From Halobaculum gomorrense (GTDB lineage: Archaea; Halobacteriota; Halobacteria; Halobacteriales; Haloferacaceae), in assembly GCF_900129775.1 (NCBI RefSeq), contig NZ_FQWV01000008.1, positions 62,001 to 126,000 of the forward strand: a stretch of DNA of 64,000 bases, read 5' to 3'. The notes under the pieces were generated by a model. It was given only the letters and a program-made list of their open reading frames with translations, did no database searches and was not told where the DNA came from. A program made the translations under genes and the position numbers. This document shows, one piece after another, positions 14,208 through 25,947 of this stretch. Numbering within the stretch: position 1 is the stretch's first letter; each line of letters begins with the position of its first letter.

Positions 14208-14642
14208 TTACGGCGTCCGCTCGATCACGAGCGCCTGCATGTCGGCTAACTCGCCGAGCGTGAGTCGGGTGCGGCCCTCAAGCGCCTGCTGTACCTCCTG
14301 GCCGGTCAGGTCCGCGTCGATCTCGGCGGCGATCGTGTCCACGTCCAGGATCGCGGTCACCATCTCCATCATCACGTGGTCGCGCACCTCGGAGGCGATG
14401 GCCTCGGCGGGGACGCCCTCCGCCCGTTCGAGGATGGCCGCGGCGTCCCCGAGCCGAACCGTCGCGACCGCGTCGGCGTCGCCGTCGGCCATCGCGGCGA
14501 CGACGGACTCGTCCACGCCGGTCTCGGCGGCCACCGTCGCGGGATCGGCGCCGTCCAGCGCGGTCGCCAACTCCGCGGCGTACGCCTCGAGCAGGTCCCT
14601 CGGTGTCGCCTCCTCCGGGTCCGCGAGGGCGTCGTAGAGCAT
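14208..14642 (-). CDS. DUF5791 family protein
   Basis: A 144-residue acidic, alanine-rich cytoplasmic protein. The start MLYDALADPEEATPRDLLEA and the ETGVDESVVAAM segment match, from memory, the haloarchaeal DUF5791 family of unknown function. The middle looks helix-turn-helix-like (AETGVDESVVAAMADGDADA), compatible with a small DNA- or protein-binding domain, but this is weak. Start ATG at 14642. It lies 34 bases downstream of the stop of the last gene of the Tad-like locus (14677) on the same strand, and its stop is 20 bases before the SDR gene's start. It may be read through from either side. Confidence 0.72.
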   Translation of the reverse strand: MLYDALADPEEATPRDLLEAYAAELATALDGADPATVAAETGVDESVVAAMADGDADAVATVRLGDAAAILERAEGVPAEAIASEVRDHVMMEMVTAILDVDTIAAEIDADLTGQEVQQALEGRTRLTLGELADMQALVIERTP

Positions 14643-14676
14643 ACCCCTCCTCCCGGCCGCGGGGGCAAAACCGTTG

Positions 14677-17600
14677 TCACTCCCCGCCCCCCGAGAGACA
14701 GGTCGGCGCCCCCGCATCGACTGCCCGCCCGCTCGCGTCCGGGACGGACGGACACGGCCAGCCCGCGGATCGCTCGTCGGCGTTCCCGTCGATATCGCCG
14801 ACGCCCGACGTGCCTGCCGGGACGACGACAACGACGACCGTCCACGTCCGGAACGCCACGCGGTCGCTCCGGCCGAGCAGTTCTGCCGTTCCATCGCTGT
14901 CGACATCGAGCGTGACTCGAGCGCCGTCACGAATGTAGCGAACCGTCGCGTCCGCGCCGTCGGGGGCGCCGGCGGGCGCCGAGACCTCGAACTGGGGGTA
15001 CGCGCCGGCGACTTCCACGTCCCAGACGTTCACCGTCGCGTACCAGTAGCCGGGGACGGGCGCGACCGGGAGTCCGGCGAGCACCGGACCGAGCTTCCCC
15101 GCTCCGTAGCGCCGGTAGAGCGCCTCCGTCGCGTTCGCGCCAGCGCGCCGGACCGCGGACCGCAGCTCCGCGCGCCGCGCCGCCCGCGTCTCGTCGACAA
15201 CCCCCGCCCTGACGCCCGAGGGGACGGTGACACGCGAATCCGTCACCGCGGCCGCGAGTTCGACCCGGAGGCGGACCGCGAGCCGGTCGCGGTCGATCGC
15301 GGATCCAGCCCCGCCCTCACCGACCGCTGCGCGCGCGATCGCGGCTGCATACGATCCGTCGACGACCGCTGCGGTCCTCGCTCCCGCCGCGGGCCATCGG
15401 CGCCTCGCGGTGCGGAGCACGGCGAGGCGGTCTCGTCGGGAGAGGTCAGTCCGCCGTTCGAGTACCGAGCACACGCGAGAATCGACGACGCGCAGTTCGG
15501 CCGCGACCCTGCGGCGCAGCGTCGCACGGGCGGAGGCGAGACTCGTCGAGGGCTCCCCGCCGGCGCCGGCCGCGACTGCAGTGCGGTTCGTGGCGACGAG
15601 CGCGCGCCCGGCCGCCGCCAGCGACGCGGTTCGCCGAGCGGGCAGCGTGGCGTCGGTGACGGCGTCCGCGGCGTCCCCGGTCGGGACCGCGAACAGGTTC
15701 GTGTTGCGCGCGACGAGCGGACGGACCGTCTCACCGGGCGCCAACGAGTCGATCCGGCGGGACCCGACGGCCGTGACCGGGAGGTACCCCGGCACTCCGT
15801 GGGGCGTGAGCACCACCTCGCCGGCGCGCCACCGTCCAGCGGAGGCCGGTCGGGGTGCGGTCGCCTCGCTCGCGATGCGCGCGAGGTCGTCGATCCGATC
15901 GTCCGCCCCAGCGCGGAGCTCGTCGATCCGATCCCGATAGGCGTCGTTGCGGGCTGCCGATCCGCCCGCGCGAGCGTCGAGTTCGGCGATCACGCTGTCG
16001 ACGTAGGCGGCCCTGGCGGCGACGCGCGCGCGGTCTGCGGCGCCGTCGTACGTCGCCGGCGCGTCGACGATCGACTCCCGCCGTTCCCGGACGACCGCGG
16101 CCAACCGCGCGGCCGCATTCGCCTCGCCGGCGGCCACGGCCGAGCGCACCACCGGCACGGAAACGTTCCGGACTCGTTCGCGGACGCCGATCAGATCACG
16201 GTAGATCCAGTCGTCGAGTTCGGGCGGGCGGTCGCCGTAGACGGTCGTCCGATCGACGGTCTCGTGCCCCAACCTGACCCCGCTGGCACGAGGACGGACC
16301 GCGGCTCGCGCTGCCCGATCCGTCGCCCCCGGCGGCAACAGGTCCGCCCGCGCGGCCGCCGGCACGTCCGCGAGGTTCAGCCCGTCGACGGCGCCTCCGC
16401 GGACGAAGCGGGGCGCCGTCGGCCGGTCGGGGCCGGTCGAGGGGTCGTACTCGACCGTGAGCGTGATCCGGACCCGGTAGCGGTCCGTCCACCTCGCCGT
16501 CGTCGTCCGGATCGATCCGTTCCCCACCCAGCGCCGCGTCACCCGGTTGCGGACGGCGACCGTCCGACGCTCGTCGGCTGCGACTCGGTCGCGACGATCG
16601 GCGGTCGGACCGCCGATCGACTCGTGCTCGACCACGACGACCCGTTCGTCGAGCCGCTCCGACAGCAGCGTCCAGTTCGGCCCCGGTGGCGACCGCGGCG
16701 GGCGCTGTGCCAGCGTGACGCCGACGACCCTGACGCGGCGGGTCGCCCGGGAACGATAGGCGCCCCGAACTGCGGCGTCGAATCCGCCGTCGGACCGGTG
16801 GTCGAGGAACGCGACGAACGCGCGGTCCGCGCTCGCGTTCACGCCGACGCGGAACGAACGGCCGCCGTCACCGCCGGTTCGACTCGCGCCGTCGAGCGTC
16901 GTCGTGGTCGTCCCGGTCGTCGTCGCCGGCCGGTCGACAGGTCGCATCACATTACGGGCATCAGCAAGGACGCGCTCGGTCCACGCCGGGCCGCGCGCCA
17001 TCGCCGGCGCGAGCAGGTCGCGCGCGCCGACGCGGGCGGTCGCCGTGAGCAGCGCCGCTCGGCCGGCGGGGTCACCGCGGCCGTACACCGCACGCTGTGC
17101 GCGCAGCGCCGCGGCGTTCGTCGACAGCTCGACGTGGCGCGCGGCGAGGACGTTCGAGATCGGGGCCCCGAGGTACTGTGCCGTGCCGCGAGCCTGGGCA
17201 ACCGACCACAGGCGCCACGTGAGCGCACGACCCAGTCCCGGCCCATCGACCGGCGAGCGATTCAGCCGGGCCTCGTACGCGGCGGTCTGGTCGTGCATCG
17301 CGAGCACGGGGACCGCGACGGAGACGGTATAGTTCACCCGGCGCGTCGCGACCGTCTCGCCGCCGCGCATTGCGGTCAGCGTCACGTTCCGAACGGTGAC
17401 GCGCAAGGCGGTCCCGTTCGCCAGCGACGCGACCGAGACGCGCTCGACGGCCGCTCGCGCGTCTGCGGGCGACGCGATCGACTCGACCGCCGGAAGCGAC
17501 GCGGTCGCCGTCACGCCGCCCGCGTCGGTGGTCGCGTCGGCGAGCGCCTCGGCCGTCGCCAGCGAGATCCGCAGTCGGAGGGCGTCGCGGAACGACCGGT

Positions 17601-17931
17601 TCGGGTCGAGCGCACGCCCAACAGTGGTGTTCGCCGGCGTCGTCACAGGATCGAGCGCCGCCTCATGAGCGGCACCCGTCGCGGCCGCGCGGACGGCGGG
17701 TCTACCGACCGACTCCATCCTGTCGAGTGCGTCGTCGACCGCGGTGTCGACGACGACCGGCCCGCCGAGCGCGAGCGAGTTCGCGTACGCGACGCTCCCG
17801 AGCAGGAGAACGACGGCGACCAGGGCGAACGGGACGCGCCCGCGGTCGCGGTCACCGCCCCCGCTGCCGAGCGAGCGACTTCGCGGAGACTCGGCGCCAG
17901 CACTCGGCCCCGTGCCGGTGAGAGCGCTCAC
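14677..17931 (-). CDS. Large membrane-anchored extracytoplasmic protein of the Tad-like locus (DUF7286-like)
   Basis: A 1084-residue protein, the last gene of the secretion locus. After a short polar start there is one membrane helix (FALVAVVLLLGSVAYANSLA, about residues 35-54), then a very long extracytoplasmic region rich in Ala, Arg and Val without recognisable enzyme motifs. A VWDVEVAGAYPQFEVSAP segment near the C terminus looks like a folded beta domain. By position and architecture I associate it with the haloarchaeal DUF7286 group. The chosen GTG start (17931) overlaps the previous stop by four bases (GTGA), as elsewhere in the operon. A role as a large pseudopilin-associated or TadG-like component is inference. 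Confidence 0.72.
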   Translation of the reverse strand: MSALTGTGPSAGAESPRSRSLGSGGGDRDRGRVPFALVAVVLLLGSVAYANSLALGGPVVVDTAVDDALDRMESVGRPAVRAAATGAAHEAALDPVTTPANTTVGRALDPNRSFRDALRLRISLATAEALADATTDAGGVTATASLPAVESIASPADARAAVERVSVASLANGTALRVTVRNVTLTAMRGGETVATRRVNYTVSVAVPVLAMHDQTAAYEARLNRSPVDGPGLGRALTWRLWSVAQARGTAQYLGAPISNVLAARHVELSTNAAALRAQRAVYGRGDPAGRAALLTATARVGARDLLAPAMARGPAWTERVLADARNVMRPVDRPATTTGTTTTTLDGASRTGGDGGRSFRVGVNASADRAFVAFLDHRSDGGFDAAVRGAYRSRATRRVRVVGVTLAQRPPRSPPGPNWTLLSERLDERVVVVEHESIGGPTADRRDRVAADERRTVAVRNRVTRRWVGNGSIRTTTARWTDRYRVRITLTVEYDPSTGPDRPTAPRFVRGGAVDGLNLADVPAAARADLLPPGATDRAARAAVRPRASGVRLGHETVDRTTVYGDRPPELDDWIYRDLIGVRERVRNVSVPVVRSAVAAGEANAAARLAAVVRERRESIVDAPATYDGAADRARVAARAAYVDSVIAELDARAGGSAARNDAYRDRIDELRAGADDRIDDLARIASEATAPRPASAGRWRAGEVVLTPHGVPGYLPVTAVGSRRIDSLAPGETVRPLVARNTNLFAVPTGDAADAVTDATLPARRTASLAAAGRALVATNRTAVAAGAGGEPSTSLASARATLRRRVAAELRVVDSRVCSVLERRTDLSRRDRLAVLRTARRRWPAAGARTAAVVDGSYAAAIARAAVGEGGAGSAIDRDRLAVRLRVELAAAVTDSRVTVPSGVRAGVVDETRAARRAELRSAVRRAGANATEALYRRYGAGKLGPVLAGLPVAPVPGYWYATVNVWDVEVAGAYPQFEVSAPAGAPDGADATVRYIRDGARVTLDVDSDGTAELLGRSDRVAFRTWTVVVVVVPAGTSGVGDIDGNADERSAGWPCPSVPDASGRAVDAGAPTCLSGGGE

Positions 17932-18785
17932 GGCGACCACGTCCTGACGACGATGGTCACCCGGGTCGGATCGCCGGACCCGCAGGCGTCGCGTTCGCCC
18001 GCAGGGCTCTCGGCGGCCGCGCCGGCCTCGGCGTCAGCGGCGAGGGCGGCGGCGAGTGCCCGGTTCGCCGAGCGCGGACCGCCGCGCTTCAACCGGGCGA
18101 TCGCGTCGACGCCCGTCGCCCGTCCTGCCCGACGGTACCGGTCGGTTACGGCCGCCGACGCGATCGGGTCGCCGCGGGCGGCCGCGGCGATCCTGTCGGG
18201 GGGAAACAGCACGGCGACGGCCCGCGAGGCGGCGGTGGTGGCGCCGTCTTCGGTGTCGCTCTCACTCGCGGCCGGGACGGACGACGCCCCCACCGGGACC
18301 GAGAACCGGGCCGCGCGGACGGTCACGGTCGGCGGCGGCCGCGGCCCGACCCGTACCGTCGCGCCGAGCCCCGCGCACGGGAGCGGGCGCCAGACCGCGC
18401 GGATCGCCGTTCGCGATCCGACGGCATCGGCGACGGCTCGACGGACGCCCCGACGGTAGTCCCCGACTGCGGGGGAGAGAGCCGTGTCGTCGATCGTTGC
18501 CGACCGGGTCACGGCCCGCGCGAGGTGCTCCCCCAGCGTCCCGTGAGCGATTCGGTCGGCCTCGGGCGACGCGGCAGCGTCGTCGGGTCCGGTCGTCCCC
18601 TCGGCTGCGACGATCGTGTACTCCACCGATGCCGTCGTCGTCGCGAGTGTCGCCGCCGTCTCGCTCGCCCGGGACTCGGCCGCATGTGGGGCCGTCTTCG
18701 CCGCGTCGTCGGTAGCGGCGAGCGTTCCGGCGGCCGCGCTGACGAGCAGGAGCGCGAGGCACACGTCGAGCAGCGATCCCGTCAT
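17928..18785 (-). CDS. TM-anchored extracytoplasmic protein of the Tad-like locus (DUF7284-like)
   Basis: A 285-residue protein whose first residues after MTGS form a hydrophobic helix (LLDVCLALLLVSAAAGTLAA), followed by a polar extracytoplasmic domain with little similarity I can name. The N-terminal anchor with a folded exterior is like TadE/TadF/TadG-type pseudopilins, but no clear prepilin cleavage motif is present. ATG at 18785 overlaps the preceding stop (ATGA); an in-frame GTG two codons earlier exists. A cysteine pair (PLPCAGLG, ERDACGSGD) could form a disulfide. Association with DUF7284 is from memory of gene order and is uncertain. Confidence 0.72.
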   Translation of the reverse strand: MTGSLLDVCLALLLVSAAAGTLAATDDAAKTAPHAAESRASETAATLATTTASVEYTIVAAEGTTGPDDAAASPEADRIAHGTLGEHLARAVTRSATIDDTALSPAVGDYRRGVRRAVADAVGSRTAIRAVWRPLPCAGLGATVRVGPRPPPTVTVRAARFSVPVGASSVPAASESDTEDGATTAASRAVAVLFPPDRIAAAARGDPIASAAVTDRYRRAGRATGVDAIARLKRGGPRSANRALAAALAADAEAGAAAESPAGERDACGSGDPTRVTIVVRTWSP

Positions 18786-19195
18786 CGCCACACCGTGACG
18801 CGGAGGCGACCCGGACGGATCCGGCCGGGCGCGAGCGCGACGCCGACTCGCCTGGTCGCCGTCGCGCGGCCGTCGCCGTCGGCCACCGACTCGGGCGTCG
18901 CGTCGCCGGCGCTCCAGCGACGGCCGGCGACGGCGAGCGTGACGTTCATCCGCCGGTTGGTCCCCGCCGTCGCGGCGCCCCCGCCGAGTCGCCCCGGATC
19001 CGCGACGCCGCCGACAGTGACGGCCTCGTGCACGCGTTCGAGCGCCGGACGCGCGCTGGGCGTCGACCTCGATCCGCCGACGCCGTCGAGAACGATCGCG
19101 TAGGCGGCGACGCCGAGCGAGAGCGCGAGCACCGCCGCCAGCGCGACGGTCGGCTCGGCGAACGCCCGGTCACGCGACGAGGACGAGCGTGACAT
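18782..19195 (-). CDS. Small TM-anchored protein of the Tad-like locus (DUF7285-like)
   Basis: A 137-residue protein: polar start (MSRSSSSRDRAFAEP), a hydrophobic helix (TVALAAVLALSLGVAAYAIV, about residues 16-35) and a short beta-rich domain ending LRVTVWR. The Glu-Pro just before the hydrophobic stretch recalls the conserved E of type IV pilin-like helices (F-A-E-P-T-V), so it may be a minor pseudopilin. Start at 19195 overlaps the upstream gene's end by 26 bases; no better start with conserved sequence is visible. It is coupled to the next gene by a four-base ATGA overlap. Confidence 0.7.
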   Translation of the reverse strand: MSRSSSSRDRAFAEPTVALAAVLALSLGVAAYAIVLDGVGGSRSTPSARPALERVHEAVTVGGVADPGRLGGGAATAGTNRRMNVTLAVAGRRWSAGDATPESVADGDGRATATRRVGVALAPGRIRPGRLRVTVWR

Positions 19196-19682
19196 CCGTC
19201 TCCCCCCACGAGACGTGCCGGGCGTACAGCGTCCGACCGGCGGTCCAGTCAGTCTGGCTGGCGGCGGCGAGCGTGTCGCTACCGCCGTCGCCGTCGCTTT
19301 CTGCGCGCGCGGCCGCGACTGCGACGGCGAACTCCTCCGGTGCATCGAACGCGCGACTGGGGGAGTCACCGAGAGCGATCCCCGAGAGTCGCCCGTCGGG
19401 GTCGACCGGGACGACGGCACCCGATCCGAAGGCGGCGAACGCGGATCCGCCGTCCGAGCGCAGGGAGACGCCCCGAGTCGTCACTCGGACCCGGTCGGCG
19501 GCGATCCGGTAGCGCGCGGCAGCGGGCGCGTCGGCCGCGGCGACCGCGTCGACGGTCGCGGCCGCGGAGACGGCGTCCGGGGGCGGCGCGGTCGGAAGGC
19601 CGGAGACCGCACCCAGCGTGACCGCGCCGGCGACGGCGAGGCCGAGCCAGGCGTACCAGACATCGAGTGGTGCATCAAGCAT
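19170..19682 (-). CDS. TM-anchored protein of the Tad-like locus (DUF7283-like)
   Basis: A 170-residue protein with an N-terminal helix (VWYAWLGLAVAGAVTLGAVS, about residues 8-27) and an extracytoplasmic domain of mixed composition ending in WGETDVTLVLVA. I relate it to the haloarchaeal DUF7283 group from gene order. It is the first gene after the platform protein and is separated from it by 74 bases that carry a promoter-like motif (19693-19713), so the four extracytoplasmic genes can be transcribed apart from the ATPase and platform genes. ATG at 19682 lies 30-31 bases from that TATA-like element, consistent with a leaderless mRNA. Confidence 0.75.
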   Translation of the reverse strand: MLDAPLDVWYAWLGLAVAGAVTLGAVSGLPTAPPPDAVSAAATVDAVAAADAPAAARYRIAADRVRVTTRGVSLRSDGGSAFAAFGSGAVVPVDPDGRLSGIALGDSPSRAFDAPEEFAVAVAAARAESDGDGGSDTLAAASQTDWTAGRTLYARHVSWGETDVTLVLVA

Positions 19683-19763: not shown

Positions 19764-21661
19764 ACGATCATCGCGACAGCCGCGTGGCCGGCGACGAATG
19801 CGGCGCACGCGGTGACGAGTGCGAGGCCGACGCGGTACCCCACGATCGTCGTGTCGAGCCCGCGCTCCAGCCCGGTCGCGAGCGCGGTCAGCGTGGCCGC
19901 GAGCGTCAGCACGTACACGCCGACGACCGGACCGACCAGCGAGACTGAGACGGCGGTGCCGGCCGCGGCAGTCCCCCCTGCGCTCGCGCCGACGCCCGCT
20001 CCGATCCCAGCGAGGCCGTCGAGCCGCCCAGCCAACGCGACGGTCGCTCCGCCGACGAGCGGCCCGAACAGCGCCGCCGTGTCGCGGAGGGTGCTCGTCA
20101 CCGTCGCCAGCTCGCGCCGTGCGGCGCGCTCGGCGTCGGCGAGCGCGGCGAGGCGGTCCGCGTGCGCGACGAGCGCGTCGCCCGCCGGACGACCCGCCGC
20201 CCCCGCGGCGACAATCGCCGTCACCGCGTCGGCCGCCCGGCCGCCGGCGCCGCGAGCGGGACCGAACGGGGCGCCCTCGCCCGCGAGCGCCGTCTCGACC
20301 GTGATCCCGAGCGCCGATCGCCGTCTGGCCGCCGCCGCGAGCGCGTCGCCTGTCGGCCCGTCGAGCGAGGACGCGACGGCGAGCAGGGCGCGCTCAACGG
20401 CCTCCCCGTCGGCGACCCGTCGACCGAGCAGGGCGAGCGCGTCGCTCAGTCCGCGATCTCGCTCGGCGATCGCTCGCCGCGCCTCTCGCCGCGGGTGGAG
20501 GTACACGACGAGCGCCGTTCCGACGCCGGTCCCGATAGCCAGCACCGGACTCGCCCAGTCGTCAACGATCAGAGGGGCGACGACCCACGACAGCGCGGCG
20601 CCCGCGACGCCCCCGAGGAGTGTCGCCGCCCGCCGATCGGGGACGGCCGGATGCGACGCGTCGATCCGCGGCGCCGGCAGCGCGACCGGCCGGCGAAGCA
20701 GGAGCCGGCCGGCGGCGACCGCGAGTCCCGCGGGTAACAGCAGGTCGTACACCGCGGCGAACGCCGTCGGAGAGAGCGGCACGCCGGCGGCGACCGCGGC
20801 CGGGAGCGTTCCGACCAGCGCGAGTGGGAGCAGGACGCCGAACGCGTACAGACCCGTAACCGGGGCCCGGAGGTCGCCGGCGAACGATGCGCTCCGATCC
20901 CGTAGCCCCTCCTCGACGGTCGCGACGGCGCGGATCAACAGCTTCGGACCGTCGTCTGAGGGGTCCGCGGCCGCGGCCGCGAGCAGCAGGGCCACTGACC
21001 GGTCGAGCGCCGGGAACCACTCGCGCCACTCCGCGGCGAACGAGGAGAGGCCGGCATCGGCGGAGCCGACGACAGCGGCGCGCTCGCCGTGCTCCCGGAG
21101 GCTCCGCTGGAGCGGCCCGTCCCCGCCGTTCGCCGCGAACCGCACTGCACGCTCCGGTATGGGGTTGAGGCGCAGCGACAGCGACAGCGCGCTCACGACG
21201 GTCGTCGCGTCGGCGATCGCACGCGTCCGAACGACGGCCGCCGCGATCACCGGCGCACGGTGGACCGACACGGCGACGACCCCTCCGACGGCGATCGAGA
21301 GGCAGCCGACGGCGACCACCCCCTGTGGGGGGAGCCCCGACCCGGCGAGGAACGCAGCCGTGAGTGCGGCGACGAGCGCACCCGTCCCCGCGATCACGCC
21401 CGCGGTCCCCGCCGCGGCCGTGACCTGGTCTGCATCGACGGCCAGCCCGATGACCGCGCACGCCCGGTCGAGGTCGCAACGTCCGTCCCCGTCCCCGTGG
21501 TCGAAGTCGCATCGTCCGTCTCCCTCCCTGCACGGGACCATCCGCGCGGTCGCTCGGTCGGGCCACGCGCGAGCGGCCGTCGCGATCGCCCGCTCGGCGC
21601 CAGCGGTGAGCCGGCGAACCCACGATCTCGGTTGGTCCGCCGACCGCGTCGCCGCCGTCAT
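19757..21661 (-). CDS. TadC-like inner-membrane platform protein (type II secretion F family)
   Basis: A 634-residue polytopic protein, probably the membrane platform that the ATPase acts on. It has several hydrophobic clusters (about residues 85-135, 225-290, 330-370 and the last 100 residues) and two GspF-like cytoplasmic halves (ALSLSLRLNPIPERAVRFAA; LALLGRRVADGEAVERALLA), as usual for archaeal TadC proteins with duplicated F domains. Before the first helix is a cysteine cluster, Cys44, 51, 62 and 68, within an Asp/Gly-rich repeat (GDGRCDFD...GDGRCDLD). ATG at 21661 overlaps the ATPase stop by four bases (ATGA), so translation is likely coupled. Confidence 0.86.
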   Translation of the reverse strand: MTAATRSADQPRSWVRRLTAGAERAIATAARAWPDRATARMVPCREGDGRCDFDHGDGDGRCDLDRACAVIGLAVDADQVTAAAGTAGVIAGTGALVAALTAAFLAGSGLPPQGVVAVGCLSIAVGGVVAVSVHRAPVIAAAVVRTRAIADATTVVSALSLSLRLNPIPERAVRFAANGGDGPLQRSLREHGERAAVVGSADAGLSSFAAEWREWFPALDRSVALLLAAAAADPSDDGPKLLIRAVATVEEGLRDRSASFAGDLRAPVTGLYAFGVLLPLALVGTLPAAVAAGVPLSPTAFAAVYDLLLPAGLAVAAGRLLLRRPVALPAPRIDASHPAVPDRRAATLLGGVAGAALSWVVAPLIVDDWASPVLAIGTGVGTALVVYLHPRREARRAIAERDRGLSDALALLGRRVADGEAVERALLAVASSLDGPTGDALAAAARRRSALGITVETALAGEGAPFGPARGAGGRAADAVTAIVAAGAAGRPAGDALVAHADRLAALADAERAARRELATVTSTLRDTAALFGPLVGGATVALAGRLDGLAGIGAGVGASAGGTAAAGTAVSVSLVGPVVGVYVLTLAATLTALATGLERGLDTTIVGYRVGLALVTACAAFVAGHAAVAMIVG

Positions 21662-23601
21662 CGGTCGCCAGCCGCGTCGACCCCGCTGGTCCCGGTCCTG
21701 CCGGCGTCCGCGAGCGTCCGGATCGTTGCCCCGCGAGTCCGGAGCGCGTCGCGAACGTCGCCGTACCTCTCGCCCGGACGGGCAAGCGCCGCGAGGGCGC
21801 GACTCTGCCCGCGGTCGATCACGCCGGTCGAGATCGCCGTCTCCCCGTCGCGTTCGGCGAGCGCCGCGAGGTCCTCGCGAGTCGGTCCCCGCACCTCCTC
21901 GATCGACGCCAGCGCCCGGTCGGGGCCGAGCGTGACCACCAGGTCGGTCGTCGCGAACGACGAGGCCGGAACGCCGAGATCGGAGACGACCCGTTCGCGA
22001 ACCGCCGCCCCGCCGGTTCCGTGGATAGTGCCCAAGACGGCGTCGGCAGCGGCGCCGACCCGCATCGCCTCGTACAGCGCCTGCGCCTCCGGGCCGCGAA
22101 CCTCCCCGACGACGAGCGCGCCCTCCCCGAGTCGCAGCGCGGTCCGAACGGCGTCCGTCGGCGAAAACGCGGCGTCGGTGCCCGCCTCGGCGCGGAGCGG
22201 TTGCACGTCGCGTTCGGCTTCGCGAAGCGCCGCCACGGGGAGCTCGGGCGTGTCCTCGATCACCACGCTCCGCGTCTCGGCCGCGAGTTCGAAACACAGC
22301 GCGGCCAACATCGATGTCTTGCCCGCGCCGCGCGGTCCGGCGATCAGGATCGCAGCCCCCCGTTCGACGGCGACCGAGAGCAGTCCGGCCGCCCACGGCG
22401 AGAGCGAGCCGACCGCGACGAGCCGCGGGAGCGTCCACGGGTCGTCGGCCCGCCGACGGAACGCGAATCCCTGTCCGTCGGTCGCGGGATCGGTGACCGC
22501 GGCCACCCGCACGCCGTCCAGCGAGGCGTCGGCCGCGGGCGACGCCCGGGAGAATCCCCGACCGCTCTCGGCCCGGAGTCGGCTCGTCAGCGCGTCGACA
22601 TCGGCGGGCGACAGCCGGACGTTGCTCGTCATCGGCTCGCCGTCGACGACGACTCGGACTGGCCGCTCGGTCGCGGGCGCCGACAGGAACGCGTCGGTCA
22701 CGCGCTCGTCGGCGAACAGCTCGTCCAACACGCCGACGCCGCGGGTATGACGCCGAAGGGACGCGCCGAGCGCCGCTATCGGGAGCGGTTCGCCGGTGGG
22801 TGTATCGGCGGCGACCCGCCGAACGGCCCGAGCGGGACCGCGCGGCCCGTGAGAGACTCGCCCGGCGGCGAGGGTGGCTGCGGCGTCCGTCAGGACCGAG
22901 AGCGCGGCCGCCGAGAACGCCCGCTCCGCGGGGACGAGTTGGTACCGCGGGAGCCTGTCGGGGCGATCGTAGACGAGGGCGCGACCGCCGGTATCGAGGT
23001 CCCGCTTCGCTCGGAGCGTCGAGTCCGGCGGTGGCGTGGGCCGAGTGCGTCCGAGCGACACCGCCGGCGCGACGCTCGCCGCGAGCGCGGCGCCCGGTTC
23101 GCCGCGGGCGTCGACCTCCTCGGCGCACGCCGCGAGCCCGCACTCGGCGACGAGCCTCGCGACCGGACCCGCACGGCCGAGCGCCTCGCGGGCGATCGAG
23201 ACCGGCGCGCGGCGAGCGCGCGCCGCCAGGTCGGGGTCGTGAATCGCGACCGCGTCGACAAACCGTCCCGCCGCGAGCAGCAACGCGAGCGACTCTTCCT
23301 CGTAGATTCGGTCGACGCCGCCCGATCGAACCCGAACGAAGGCGGCGTCCCGATCGGCGAGCGCGCCGATCACCGTCGCTCTGCACGCCGGGTGCGCGGC
23401 GAGATCGCCCCCGGAGCACGCCCCCGCATCGACGTGCAGTGTCGCCGACCCGCTCACCGACCCCCGATCGGACCGGGACTCGAACGCAGTGGCACACCGA
23501 CATCCGTCGTCCCCGCCCTTGCCTCCGGCGTCGGTCCCGTCTCCGCTCCGGTCGACCGCTCCGTCGCCGACGCGGTCGCGGAGTTCGTCGATGAATCGCA
23601 T
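21658..23601 (-). CDS. Type II/IV secretion system ATPase (TadA/GspE-like)
   Basis: A 647-residue secretion ATPase that would power pilus or pseudopilus assembly as a hexamer. C-terminal half: Walker A GPRGAGKTS at about residues 422-430, an Asp-box-like VVIEDTPELPV and Walker B LVVGEVRGPEA near 495, then LGTIHGTGG like the His box. The N-terminal half has a cysteine cluster Cys34, Cys36, Cys62 and Cys73 (DGCRCATAF ... GACSGGD ... PACRATV), probably metal-binding. ATG at 23601 follows promoter motif copy 2 by 9 nt. It is followed directly by the platform gene (ATGA overlap). No pilin gene with a clear prepilin site lies in this locus. Confidence 0.9.
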   Translation of the reverse strand: MRFIDELRDRVGDGAVDRSGDGTDAGGKGGDDGCRCATAFESRSDRGSVSGSATLHVDAGACSGGDLAAHPACRATVIGALADRDAAFVRVRSGGVDRIYEEESLALLLAAGRFVDAVAIHDPDLAARARRAPVSIAREALGRAGPVARLVAECGLAACAEEVDARGEPGAALAASVAPAVSLGRTRPTPPPDSTLRAKRDLDTGGRALVYDRPDRLPRYQLVPAERAFSAAALSVLTDAAATLAAGRVSHGPRGPARAVRRVAADTPTGEPLPIAALGASLRRHTRGVGVLDELFADERVTDAFLSAPATERPVRVVVDGEPMTSNVRLSPADVDALTSRLRAESGRGFSRASPAADASLDGVRVAAVTDPATDGQGFAFRRRADDPWTLPRLVAVGSLSPWAAGLLSVAVERGAAILIAGPRGAGKTSMLAALCFELAAETRSVVIEDTPELPVAALREAERDVQPLRAEAGTDAAFSPTDAVRTALRLGEGALVVGEVRGPEAQALYEAMRVGAAADAVLGTIHGTGGAAVRERVVSDLGVPASSFATTDLVVTLGPDRALASIEEVRGPTREDLAALAERDGETAISTGVIDRGQSRALAALARPGERYGDVRDALRTRGATIRTLADAGRTGTSGVDAAGDR

Positions 23602-24137
23602 GGGGACCGTGGTCCCGTTTCGGTACTTGAACCTGCGTGCGCTGTGGAGGCACCGACCGATCGGACCCGGATCCGTCGCTTCAGGTGACTCTCCTCGCTG
23701 GACGCCCCCCGACTCGGGGCAACGGGGACCAGCGCCAGGCGGACGGTCCCGCGACCGGAGAACTCGATCCCGGCGGCCGGCAGGTCGTACGGTGCGGCGA
23801 GCGGCGTCCGCTCGGGGGCTGCGTCCCCGATGGCCCGAACGAACACCGCACCGGTTGCGCCGTCGCCCGGACACAACGCGAGGAACCGAACGCGTGCGGC
23901 GGCCAGCGAACGCCGAGGCACCGCCATCGAGACGATGCGGCGGGCGGTCGGGCGGTCGTCCGCCGCTGCGGTCTCGCCGGGCTCGGACGCGAGCGTCGCC
24001 AGGGCCGCGCGGTCGATCCGATCCGGGACCCGATCGAGGGCCGCGGCCGTCCGCTCGACCCGCGCGGTCTCGACGGCCGGCAGCGACGCGGCGAACAGCG
24101 CCGACGCGACCGCGACCGCGACGACGACGCGGATCAC
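23454..24137 (-). CDS. Membrane protein between coiled-coil and ATPase genes (DUF7311-like)
   Basis: A 227-residue open frame starting at GTG 24137, which overlaps the previous stop by four bases (GTGA). One membrane helix opens the protein (VIRVVVAVAVASALFAASLP) followed by a domain of about 150 residues that ends well at LKRRIRVRSVGA. The remaining residues run 148 bases into the ATPase gene in another frame and look like shadow sequence (Ser/Thr/Pro-rich), so the natural stop may have been lost or the tail may be a real overlap. I relate it to the DUF7311 group from gene order; this is from memory. Function unknown; a periplasmic-side partner of the ATPase/platform is possible. Confidence 0.65.
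   Translation of the reverse strand: MIRVVVAVAVASALFAASLPAVETARVERTAAALDRVPDRIDRAALATLASEPGETAAADDRPTARRIVSMAVPRRSLAAARVRFLALCPGDGATGAVFVRAIGDAAPERTPLAAPYDLPAAGIEFSGRGTVRLALVPVAPSRGASSEESHLKRRIRVRSVGASTAHAGSSTETGPRSPCDSSTNSATASATERSTGAETGPTPEARAGTTDVGVPLRSSPGPIGGR
23611..23631 (-). promoter_or_regulatory. Shared 21-bp promoter motif, copy 2
   Basis: Minus strand TTCAAGTACCGAAACGGGAC then C, ending 9 nt before the ATPase ATG at 23601. It lies inside the 3' part of the preceding open frame, so it would be an internal operon promoter. It matches copy 1 at 17 of 21 positions. Confidence 0.6.
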
Positions 24138-24697
24138 AGCGCGTCTCGCAACCGCGCGACGAGCGGCGCGCCCGAGCCGCCGTCGTCGTCGGCTTCCGCG
24201 CCGGCGGCTTCCTCCGCGTCTCCGCACGCGTCCGCGTCCCGTGACGCATCGAACTCCAAGACCGGCGGGTCGTCGCGCGCGCGCTCGACCGCGGCGGCTG
24301 AGGGTACGTTCGCGCCGGCCGCAGCGTCGTCGGGGGAGGCCGGTGGCGCCCCCCGTCGTCGCTCGACCGCCGCCAGCGCTCGGTCCGCGCGCCGCTCGAC
24401 GCGCTCGTTCACCGAGCGTATCGACCCGACGTACCCGCGGATCGCCTGCGTCGCCGACTCGAGTTCGGCGACGCGCTCGTCGAGGTCGTCCAAGCGCGCC
24501 GACACGCGCCGACGCTCTGCGATCGCCTCCGTGGCCTCCTCCGCGGTGTCCGCGAGGGCCGTCTGGTCCGCGGTCCCCTCGTCCGAAACCGCCCGCTCGA
24601 CGGCGTCGAGCCTGCGTCTGAGGTCGTCGACAGTCGTCATCCGAGCGGTTCCGTCGCCGGGCGGCGCGTCTCGTCCGTCGGGGCGGTCGTGAGACAT
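24134..24697 (-). CDS. Coiled-coil cytoplasmic protein heading the Tad-like locus (DUF7310-like)
   Basis: A 187-residue soluble protein. Residues about 20-105 form a strong coiled coil with regular heptads (DDLRRRLDAVERAV; RLDDLDERVAELESATQAIR), followed by an acidic, low-complexity linker and a short C-terminal GAPLVARLRDAL motif that could dock to a partner. It is the first gene of the operon, divergent from cetZ with 161 bases between starts. ATG at 24697 lies 9 nt after promoter motif copy 3. The link to family DUF7310 is from memory. A role as an adaptor between the secretion ATPase and another cytoplasmic structure is inference. Confidence 0.75.
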   Translation of the reverse strand: MSHDRPDGRDAPPGDGTARMTTVDDLRRRLDAVERAVSDEGTADQTALADTAEEATEAIAERRRVSARLDDLDERVAELESATQAIRGYVGSIRSVNERVERRADRALAAVERRRGAPPASPDDAAAGANVPSAAAVERARDDPPVLEFDASRDADACGDAEEAAGAEADDDGGSGAPLVARLRDAL

Positions 24698-24858: not shown

Positions 24859-25947
24859 ATGAAGACGGTCCTCATCGGCGTCGGCCAGGCTGGCGGTAAG
24901 GTCACCTCCTCGCTGGTCGAGTTCGACCACGACATGGGGTTCAATTCGGTCCGGGGTGCGCTCGCGGTCAACAGCGCGACTGCGGACCTCCAGTCGCTTC
25001 CGATCGACACGGTCCTCGTGGGCCAAGACCGGGTGAAAGGCCACGGGGTCGGCGGCGACAACGAACTCGGCGCGGAGGTGATGCAGTCGGACGCCGGCGA
25101 GGTGATGGCCGCGCTGGACGGAAGGATCACGGCCGAGGCGGAGGCGATCGTCGTCGTCGCGGGGCTGGGCGGCGGCACCGGCTCCGGCGGCGCCCCCGTG
25201 CTCGCGAAGGAACTGAAGCAGGTGTACGATGTCCCGGTGTATGCGATCGGGATCCTCCCCGGTCGGGGGGAGGGCGCGATGTACCAGGTGAACGCCGGCC
25301 GGTCGCTGAAGACGCTCGCGCGGGAGGCCGACGCGACGATCCTCATCGACAACGACGCGTGGCACTCCTCGGGCGAGAGCCTCGAGGAGGGATTCGAGAG
25401 CATCAACAAGTCCATCGCCCGTCGGGTCGGGCTGCTGTTCGCCTCCGGCGAGAACGTCGAGGGCGTCGGTGAGTCCGTCGTCGACAGCAGCGAGGTGATC
25501 AACACGCTCCGCTCGGGCGGCATCGCCGCGCTCGGCTACGCGAGCGCCGAGGCCGACGACGACCCGGACACGAACGTCAACGTGGTCACGAGCATCACGC
25601 GGAACGCGCTGTTCACGGGCACGAGCCTCCCGAACGCGTCGACTGCTGACGCCGCGCTGCTCGTCGTCGCCGGGAAGCCCGACCGCATCTCGCGCAAGGG
25701 CGTCGAGCGCGCCCGCAAGTGGCTCGAAGAGGAGACCGGCTCGATGCAGGTCCGCGGCGGCGACTTCCCGCTGGAGTCCGAACGGCTCGCTTCGCTGGTG
25801 CTGCTCGGCGGCGTCGAGCGGTCCGCGCGCCTGAAGGAGTTCATGGAGCAGGCCAAAGCGGCGCGCGAGGAGGCACAGCGACAGGAGGCGAAGCGCGACG
25901 ACGAGGAGAAGCTGTTCCAAAACGACGATCTCGACGGCCTGATCTGA
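24859..25947 (+). CDS. cetZ: CetZ-type tubulin/FtsZ family protein
   Basis: A 362-residue GTPase of the archaeal tubulin superfamily. Seen: N-terminal nucleotide loop LIGVGQAGGK, the tubulin signature GGGTGSG at residues 104-110, a T5-like NAGRS segment and an acidic C-terminal tail ending QNDDLDGLI. The lack of the usual FtsZ N-terminal extension and C-terminal FtsA-binding motif places it with CetZ proteins, which polymerise and affect cell shape and motility in haloarchaea. ATTCAAGCG about 30 bases before the ATG is a TATA-like box. It is divergent from the Tad-like locus; joint function with it is inference from position. Which CetZ subgroup it belongs to cannot be judged here. Confidence 0.87.
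   Translation: MKTVLIGVGQAGGKVTSSLVEFDHDMGFNSVRGALAVNSATADLQSLPIDTVLVGQDRVKGHGVGGDNELGAEVMQSDAGEVMAALDGRITAEAEAIVVVAGLGGGTGSGGAPVLAKELKQVYDVPVYAIGILPGRGEGAMYQVNAGRSLKTLAREADATILIDNDAWHSSGESLEEGFESINKSIARRVGLLFASGENVEGVGESVVDSSEVINTLRSGGIAALGYASAEADDDPDTNVNVVTSITRNALFTGTSLPNASTADAALLVVAGKPDRISRKGVERARKWLEEETGSMQVRGGDFPLESERLASLVLLGGVERSARLKEFMEQAKAAREEAQRQEAKRDDEEKLFQNDDLDGLI

Follow-up and report, generated by a model that had tools for sequence, protein, structure and literature searches.

The stretch of DNA analysed here, referred to as the window, comprises 64,000 nucleotides of Halobaculum gomorrense (RefSeq assembly GCF_900129775.1, contig NZ_FQWV01000008.1, positions 62,001 to 126,000). 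Within a pilus gene cluster on its minus strand, two adjacent genes sharing four overlapping bases encode a type IV pilus/Tad-like secretion ATPase (P0001; 21658..23601, 647 amino acids) and a putative platform (TadC-like) protein (P0002; 19757..21661, 634 amino acids). Both products carry four cysteines close to the N terminus, which the original prediction had interpreted as matching metal-binding modules joining the two proteins or sensing metal or redox state. Our comparisons show that the ATPase cluster is real and ancient, and it is probably a structural zinc site.

The ATPase is a type II/IV secretion ATPase (T2SSE/VirB11-like) with a RecA-type core, as seen in the translated sequence and its matches to family models. 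Residues 369-552 match Pfam T2SSE (PF00437) at an E-value of 3e-13, over the cut-off, and the TadA family model TIGR03819 matches residues 243-539 with 124 bits, below its curated cut-off of 373. While the core resembles the TadA family, the match begins only at residue 243 and leaves the four-cysteine (Cys4) domain outside; neither Pfam nor NCBIfam returned anything over residues 1-240. The Walker A, Asp box, Walker B and His box motifs can be read in the window ATPase and in the homologous loci L107, L117, L162 and L173.

Conservation and predicted fold of the N-terminal domain

The N-terminal domain covers residues 31-175 (23077..23511, minus strand as for all cluster features below; about 145 residues), as delimited by alignment A2 and an AlphaFold model. 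Translation places its four ligand candidates exactly where they had been noted, at Cys34 (23500..23502), Cys36 (23494..23496), Cys62 (23416..23418) and Cys73 (23383..23385). This cluster is conserved beyond chance across the class Halobacteria, as the proposed alignment of orthologues bears out. In an 89-row alignment, a hand-picked spread of matched genomes with 88 distinct sequences (L014 and L036 being identical), cysteine occupies these columns in 86, 88, 86 and 87 rows, respectively, compared with a background of 171 cysteines in 52,625 other residues (0.325%); the next-best cysteine column of the ATPase reaches 15/89 rows. This alignment omits L029, whose sequence is broken across reading frames, as well as further loci from genomes already represented. 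Walker A was found in 85/89 rows, the remaining four being stand-alone N-domains.

Across every locus (169 loci with a match), all four cysteines are present in 117 of the 120 distinct N-domains, counted with a model built from A2. Of the three exceptions, two come from genomes of genus g68 and one is a stand-alone copy in genome G281. The 55 rows of A2, from which L107, L117 and L158 were excluded as lacking the site, have only C34, C36, C62, C73, F114 and P133 as invariant columns. Further cysteines of the window ATPase that had not been noted before, at positions 154, 159 and 436, are not conserved, and Cys154 and Cys159 were ruled out as members of the site, with cysteine in only 5/39 and 7/39 rows. 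In genus g68 (L107, L117), Cys34, Cys62 and Cys73 are replaced by T, R and W, and the Walker, Asp-box and His-box motifs are intact, so the Cys4 site does not appear to be essential everywhere.

The AlphaFold model of residues 31-175, built with 10 sequences, reached a predicted local distance difference test score (pLDDT) of 86.8 and a predicted template modelling score of 0.83; a full-length model was poor across the ATPase core (mean pLDDT 58.5). The predicted topology of the domain is beta-beta-alpha-beta-beta-alpha plus helices, with strands at residues 37-43 and 52-58 (7-13 and 22-28 of the model) and a helix at 71-83. Cys34 and Cys36 precede the first predicted strand, position 59 and Cys62 follow the second, and Cys73 sits where the first helix begins, so that a single metal would fasten the base of the hairpin (Cys34/36, Cys62) to this helix (Cys73).

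Searches for known relatives of the domain gave little. Pfam runs on the N-domains of 55 members found no common family (11 families, each in 1/55, best E 0.013), and a PDB sequence search returned two weak matches only (E 0.45 and 0.51). Foldseek matched no solved fold (best E 1.1), an empty answer that is no proof of a new fold, and VIA-align on Foldseek's own candidates gave a best Z of 4.2.

Turning to the platform protein, Cys44, Cys51, Cys62 and Cys68 were likewise located exactly as noted, and the Asp/Gly-rich repeat described there (GDGRCDFD/GDGRCDLD) is real: a 30-nt unit, 87% identical at a spacing of 33 nt, forms a private 33-base tandem duplication (21466..21528) that carries Cys51 and Cys62, with Cys44 and Cys68 just outside. 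We take the DGDGRCDxD or D-x-D-G-rich unit to resemble calcium-binding Asp loops. P0002 has no Pfam or NCBIfam match and owes its label to its adjacency to the ATPase and its hydrophobic stretches; a platform relative adjoins the ATPase in 84/88 loci. Among 85 aligned platform rows, whose open reading frames were taken stop to stop and in some cases include an upstream non-coding extension, the columns of Cys44, Cys51 and Cys62 hold cysteine in one row each, that of the window, and gaps in 83, 83 and 81 rows; at the duplication site, the sequence in L118, the sister species, is APDEELRRACAFLDL. Cysteine at the position of Cys68 occurs in 13/85 rows, many belonging to the same genus as the window, within the stretch RACAFL, and the further platform cysteines 120 and 619 are not conserved. 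The platform cysteines thus appear to be a species-private repeat expansion outside the Cys4 module. The two clusters do not match as had been proposed: three of the platform cysteines are unique to the window among these rows, whereas the four of the ATPase are class-wide. A lack of conservation in orthologues had been named beforehand as grounds for refuting the proposal, and the platform cluster fails on this count.

Homologous domains outside the haloarchaea and the nature of the site

Related ATPases extend well beyond the haloarchaea. In families f13 and f19, matches reached E-values of 8e-83 to 2e-77 (10/60 genomes searched), and 29 DPANN-type contigs with related ATPases were found. 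We refer to f13, f19 and their relatives as methanogens on the basis of phylum, family pattern and motif. In a tree of 96 ATPase cores, those of haloarchaea (27), methanogens (10) and DPANN archaea (29) are set apart from 30 other archaeal ATPases by a branch with a support of 100/99. One ATPase nested among nanoarchaeal ones in this tree (L060) comes from a contig assigned to the bacterial group Patescibacteria, either by mis-binning or through transfer.

The N-domains themselves were compared profile against profile, with E-values of 5e-8 for A2 and the methanogen profile A4, 2e-11 for A4 and A5, and 1e-5 for A2 and A5. The A2 profile matches the methanogen-type N-domain in genome G374 (E 6e-5), and A4 matches 57/392 genomes of the phylum, four of them haloarchaeal (E 1e-5 to 5e-5). 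As judged by these profiles, the N-terminal regions are homologous in haloarchaea, methanogens and some DPANN archaea.

From the 53 methanogen-side genomes matched by A4, the 30 with loci were read. The pattern C-x15-17-C-x2-C-x10/11-C is present in 29/30 loci, and in the remaining one (L214/L250) the first Cys is replaced by His. The middle element reads D/N-C-x-x-C in methanogens compared to D-A-x-x-C in haloarchaea, where Cys62 corresponds to the second Cys of the methanogen CxxC and residue 59 is A in 81, S in seven and T in one of the 89 rows, never Cys. Conversely, C-x-C with the extra Cys36 takes the place of the methanogens' single first Cys in haloarchaea, and the total stays at four. 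Residues 36 and 59, numbered 6 and 29 in the model, flank the predicted hairpin strands, so that, going by the strand limits, the old and the new ligand places would face each other across a plain hairpin. A four-ligand metal site with one ligand moved to the facing strand would explain this shift best. Nature appears to offer here a case in which a ligand has been relocated.

In most methanogen-side relatives (L214-L223, L244-L273), the helical part of the N-domain bears a second pair, CxxC...CxxC, which haloarchaea lack; in nanohaloarchaeal rows one Cys remains at each half.

The ATPase is cytoplasmic, and disulfides are unusual in the cytoplasm. A disulfide-based reading has been put forward by Makarova, Koonin and Albers (2016, PMC4858521), who suggest that ATPases of subclade 4F, chiefly those of methanomicrobia, form multiple disulfide bridges in their N-terminal, cysteine-rich domain. 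The two cysteines further along the nanohaloarchaeal domain could also pair. However, neither the move of one Cys with the number still at four nor the His in one methanogen would be allowed by a disulfide. Both observations favour a four-ligand metal site, and we regard two disulfides, or a redox-sensing thiol switch, as unlikely.

Four invariant cysteines can also bind an iron-sulfur cluster, and [4Fe-4S] clusters are widely used by halophiles and methanogens. Against this, structural zinc is the more usual occupant where CxC, CxxC and helix-start spacing are combined and a His is tolerated, and Pfam, PDB sequences and the fold search yielded no ferredoxin-like family or fold, although this is weak evidence. 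An iron-sulfur cluster in place of zinc therefore seems quite improbable to us.

Losses of the site tend to be grouped: three of the four cysteines are lost together in g68, and the site is absent in most DPANN rows. Among the 25 DPANN N-domains read of 29 loci, four Cys are present in L054 and L064, and none in 19.

Gene cluster and N-domains without the motor

The minus-strand order of the window cluster is DUF7310, DUF7311, ATPase, platform protein, DUF7283, DUF7285, DUF7284, DUF7286 and DUF5791, followed by an epimerase-like gene. The first gene encodes the DUF7310 coiled-coil protein (24134..24697; PF23991, E 1.7e-25). It is followed by an open reading frame with DUF7311 (23454..24227; PF23993, E 1.5e-24), whose matched part, residues 32-174, stops before the ATPase start. 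Downstream of the platform gene lie DUF7283 (19170..19682; PF23954, E 8e-43), a small protein with an N-terminal hydrophobic stretch that looks pseudopilin-like by eye, an open reading frame with DUF7285 (18782..19420; PF23956, E 1e-27), DUF7284 (17928..18791; PF23955, E 9e-68) and DUF7286 (14677..17940; 1087 amino acids, PF23957 with 1098 bits). DUF5791, the last gene (14220..14594), was placed by PF19104 in the window open reading frame 14208-14930 and by its whole-genome position. Directly upstream of the cluster, on the opposite strand, a CetZ-type tubulin gene is located at 24859-25947.

The machine occurs in most sampled haloarchaea, with a relative of the N-terminal half of the ATPase in 121/148 genomes of the family and 223/292 of the class. 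Haloferax volcanii gave matches to DUF5791, DUF7286 and DUF7310. Two genomes of the window's genus (G032 and G078, of 11 listed including its own) showed neither an ATPase N-terminal match nor a DUF7286 match. The own genome encodes four further, more distant ATPase paralogues, and according to their cysteine position lists none of them has the N-terminal Cys pattern.

The distance between ATPase and DUF5791 varies. In one g68 genome (G304), the Cys-poor ATPase lies about 10 kb from DUF5791, and in family f4 (L158 in G281; L162/L203 in G185) the ATPase cluster can sit far from it. In G281, a Cys-poor N-domain remnant adjoins DUF5791, and the full system is found elsewhere in the genome.

A different arrangement was found in genus g46 (family f8; L159, L160, L161, L274-L281), where DUF5791 comes directly after the N-domain. 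The two share a reading frame in seven of the eight genomes, and a frame break separates them in the eighth (G297, L281). The start may be that of the predicted fused frame or DUF5791's own Met. All four cysteines are kept in 8/8 genomes at pairwise identities of 40-87%, in rows located (8/8) by a pattern that demands three of the Cys; the chance of four given columns all being invariant is roughly 0.0035 with relatedness ignored. DUF7286 was detected in 0/8 of these genomes and DUF7310 at the cut-off in 0/8, and a search of three of the genomes gave no orthologous ATPase. Since DUF5791 closes the window cluster and L160 has the same epimerase neighbour, an internal deletion is the likely origin of this arrangement.

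The N-domain of g46 keeps its four cysteines without the machine, which means that the site can do without the platform protein; it also seems to be of use independently of the motor. This bears directly on the proposal of a joint metal site, made up of the ATPase and platform clusters, that would tie the proteins together or co-sense metal or redox. The two genes are adjacent, and in the window's species both products have four N-terminal Cys. Yet platform Cys44, Cys51 and Cys62, absent in all 84 other platform rows, lie in or beside the private duplication, so a shared metal is not supported and the joint site is already refuted as a conserved feature; together with the motorless copies, this leaves it very improbable.

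The losses in g68, where the motor appears intact, and in many DPANN rows could also indicate that the site in the window is an evolutionary leftover that is no longer important. We find this scarcely credible, because 117/120 distinct sequences keep all four cysteines through deep divergence and the motorless g46 copies keep them as well.

What was proposed as a metal-binding module therefore stands for the ATPase, where class-wide conservation, the relocated Cys, the His case and the grouped losses speak for it, and falls for the platform protein. We consider it probable that an old accessory domain forms the ATPase N terminus and that a single four-Cys metal site holds its fold in place, with structural zinc as the most likely occupant; the domain, its four cysteines and their conservation are observed, whereas metal binding, the identity of the metal and the role of the domain are what we infer from this pattern.

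Several observations weigh against this view. Two g68 halophile genomes manage without the site, the His replacement comes from one genome only, and the fold searches with Foldseek and VIA-align matched no solved fold, hence no known zinc fold backs the geometry. The DPANN rows include part-sets (three Cys in L067, three in another layout in L062, two in L065, one in L063), so loss of the site is not strictly all-or-none. As to selection in g46, the ratio of nonsynonymous to synonymous substitution rates between three genomes is about 0.37-0.66 for the N-domain versus about 0.14-0.38 for DUF5791; given also the out-of-frame copy in G297, the g46 N-domain appears partly relaxed, which weakens these copies as proof of strong selection.

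As for function, the N-domain probably provides the motor with a docking or regulatory head for soluble partners instead of driving ATP hydrolysis. Going further, the Cys4 head could be an autonomous zinc-dependent adaptor of an ancient pilus-motor branch, with a zinc site rebuilt at the halophile root by moving one ligand across the hairpin, which would work with DUF5791 and have kept a cellular job of its own after deletion of the machine. We offer this as a tentative possibility.

Relation to published systems

According to PMC4858521, subclade 4F of the archaeal type IV pilus ATPases often has an extra N-terminal cysteine-rich domain, prominent in methanomicrobia and present in halobacteria and nanoarchaea, and is accompanied by a halobacteria-only coiled-coil gene, arCOG07564. 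The clade of the window ATPase has the same distribution, with an N-terminal Cys domain in methanogens, haloarchaea and some DPANN archaea, and the DUF7310 coiled coil of the window cluster may correspond to arCOG07564. The family is probably subclade 4F, as judged by domain and distribution, and the presence of a cysteine-rich domain as such is not new. Whereas that study calls this domain variable and suggests disulfides, our comparisons point to one homologous four-ligand domain in halophiles and methanogens, with a relocated halophile ligand, absence of the site from most DPANN rows and a copy that can exist separately beside DUF5791.

The closest functional parallel is the zinc-binding CM domain of EpsE and PilF, also a tetracysteine motif in a secretion or pilus assembly ATPase. 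In PMC5061722, it is described as a CxxC-x29-CxxC motif with one zinc per subunit, needed for EpsE to be active and, in the case of PilF, for cells to be piliated at high temperature. In contrast to the site described here, which lies at the extreme N terminus and has a different spacing, the CM domain is part of the C-terminal half of the ATPase. The CxxC-x21-40-CxxC that marks the CM domain of GspE/PilB is absent in the window ATPase, where Cys436 is the only cysteine beyond residue 159, and we found no evidence for a common origin of the two.

In the open-licence literature, supplements aside, we found no published statement on the four-ligand pattern, the relocation or the DUF5791 fusion. 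Searches of this literature found nothing on DUF5791, only PMC4858521 on DUF7310, DUF7286, DUF7311 or arCOG07564, one unrelated paper on cysteine-rich archaeal secretion ATPases and, among the papers listed, nothing relevant on haloarchaeal TadA/TadC with zinc or cysteine.

With respect to the reading of single genomes, the platform protein illustrates that a repeat-born Cys cluster can look meaningful in one genome, and that an orthologue alignment settles such cases. For the ATPase family, the vague notion of a cysteine-rich domain with perhaps disulfides gives way to a defined, testable four-ligand site, and genus g46 provides a natural experiment that separates the accessory head from the motor.

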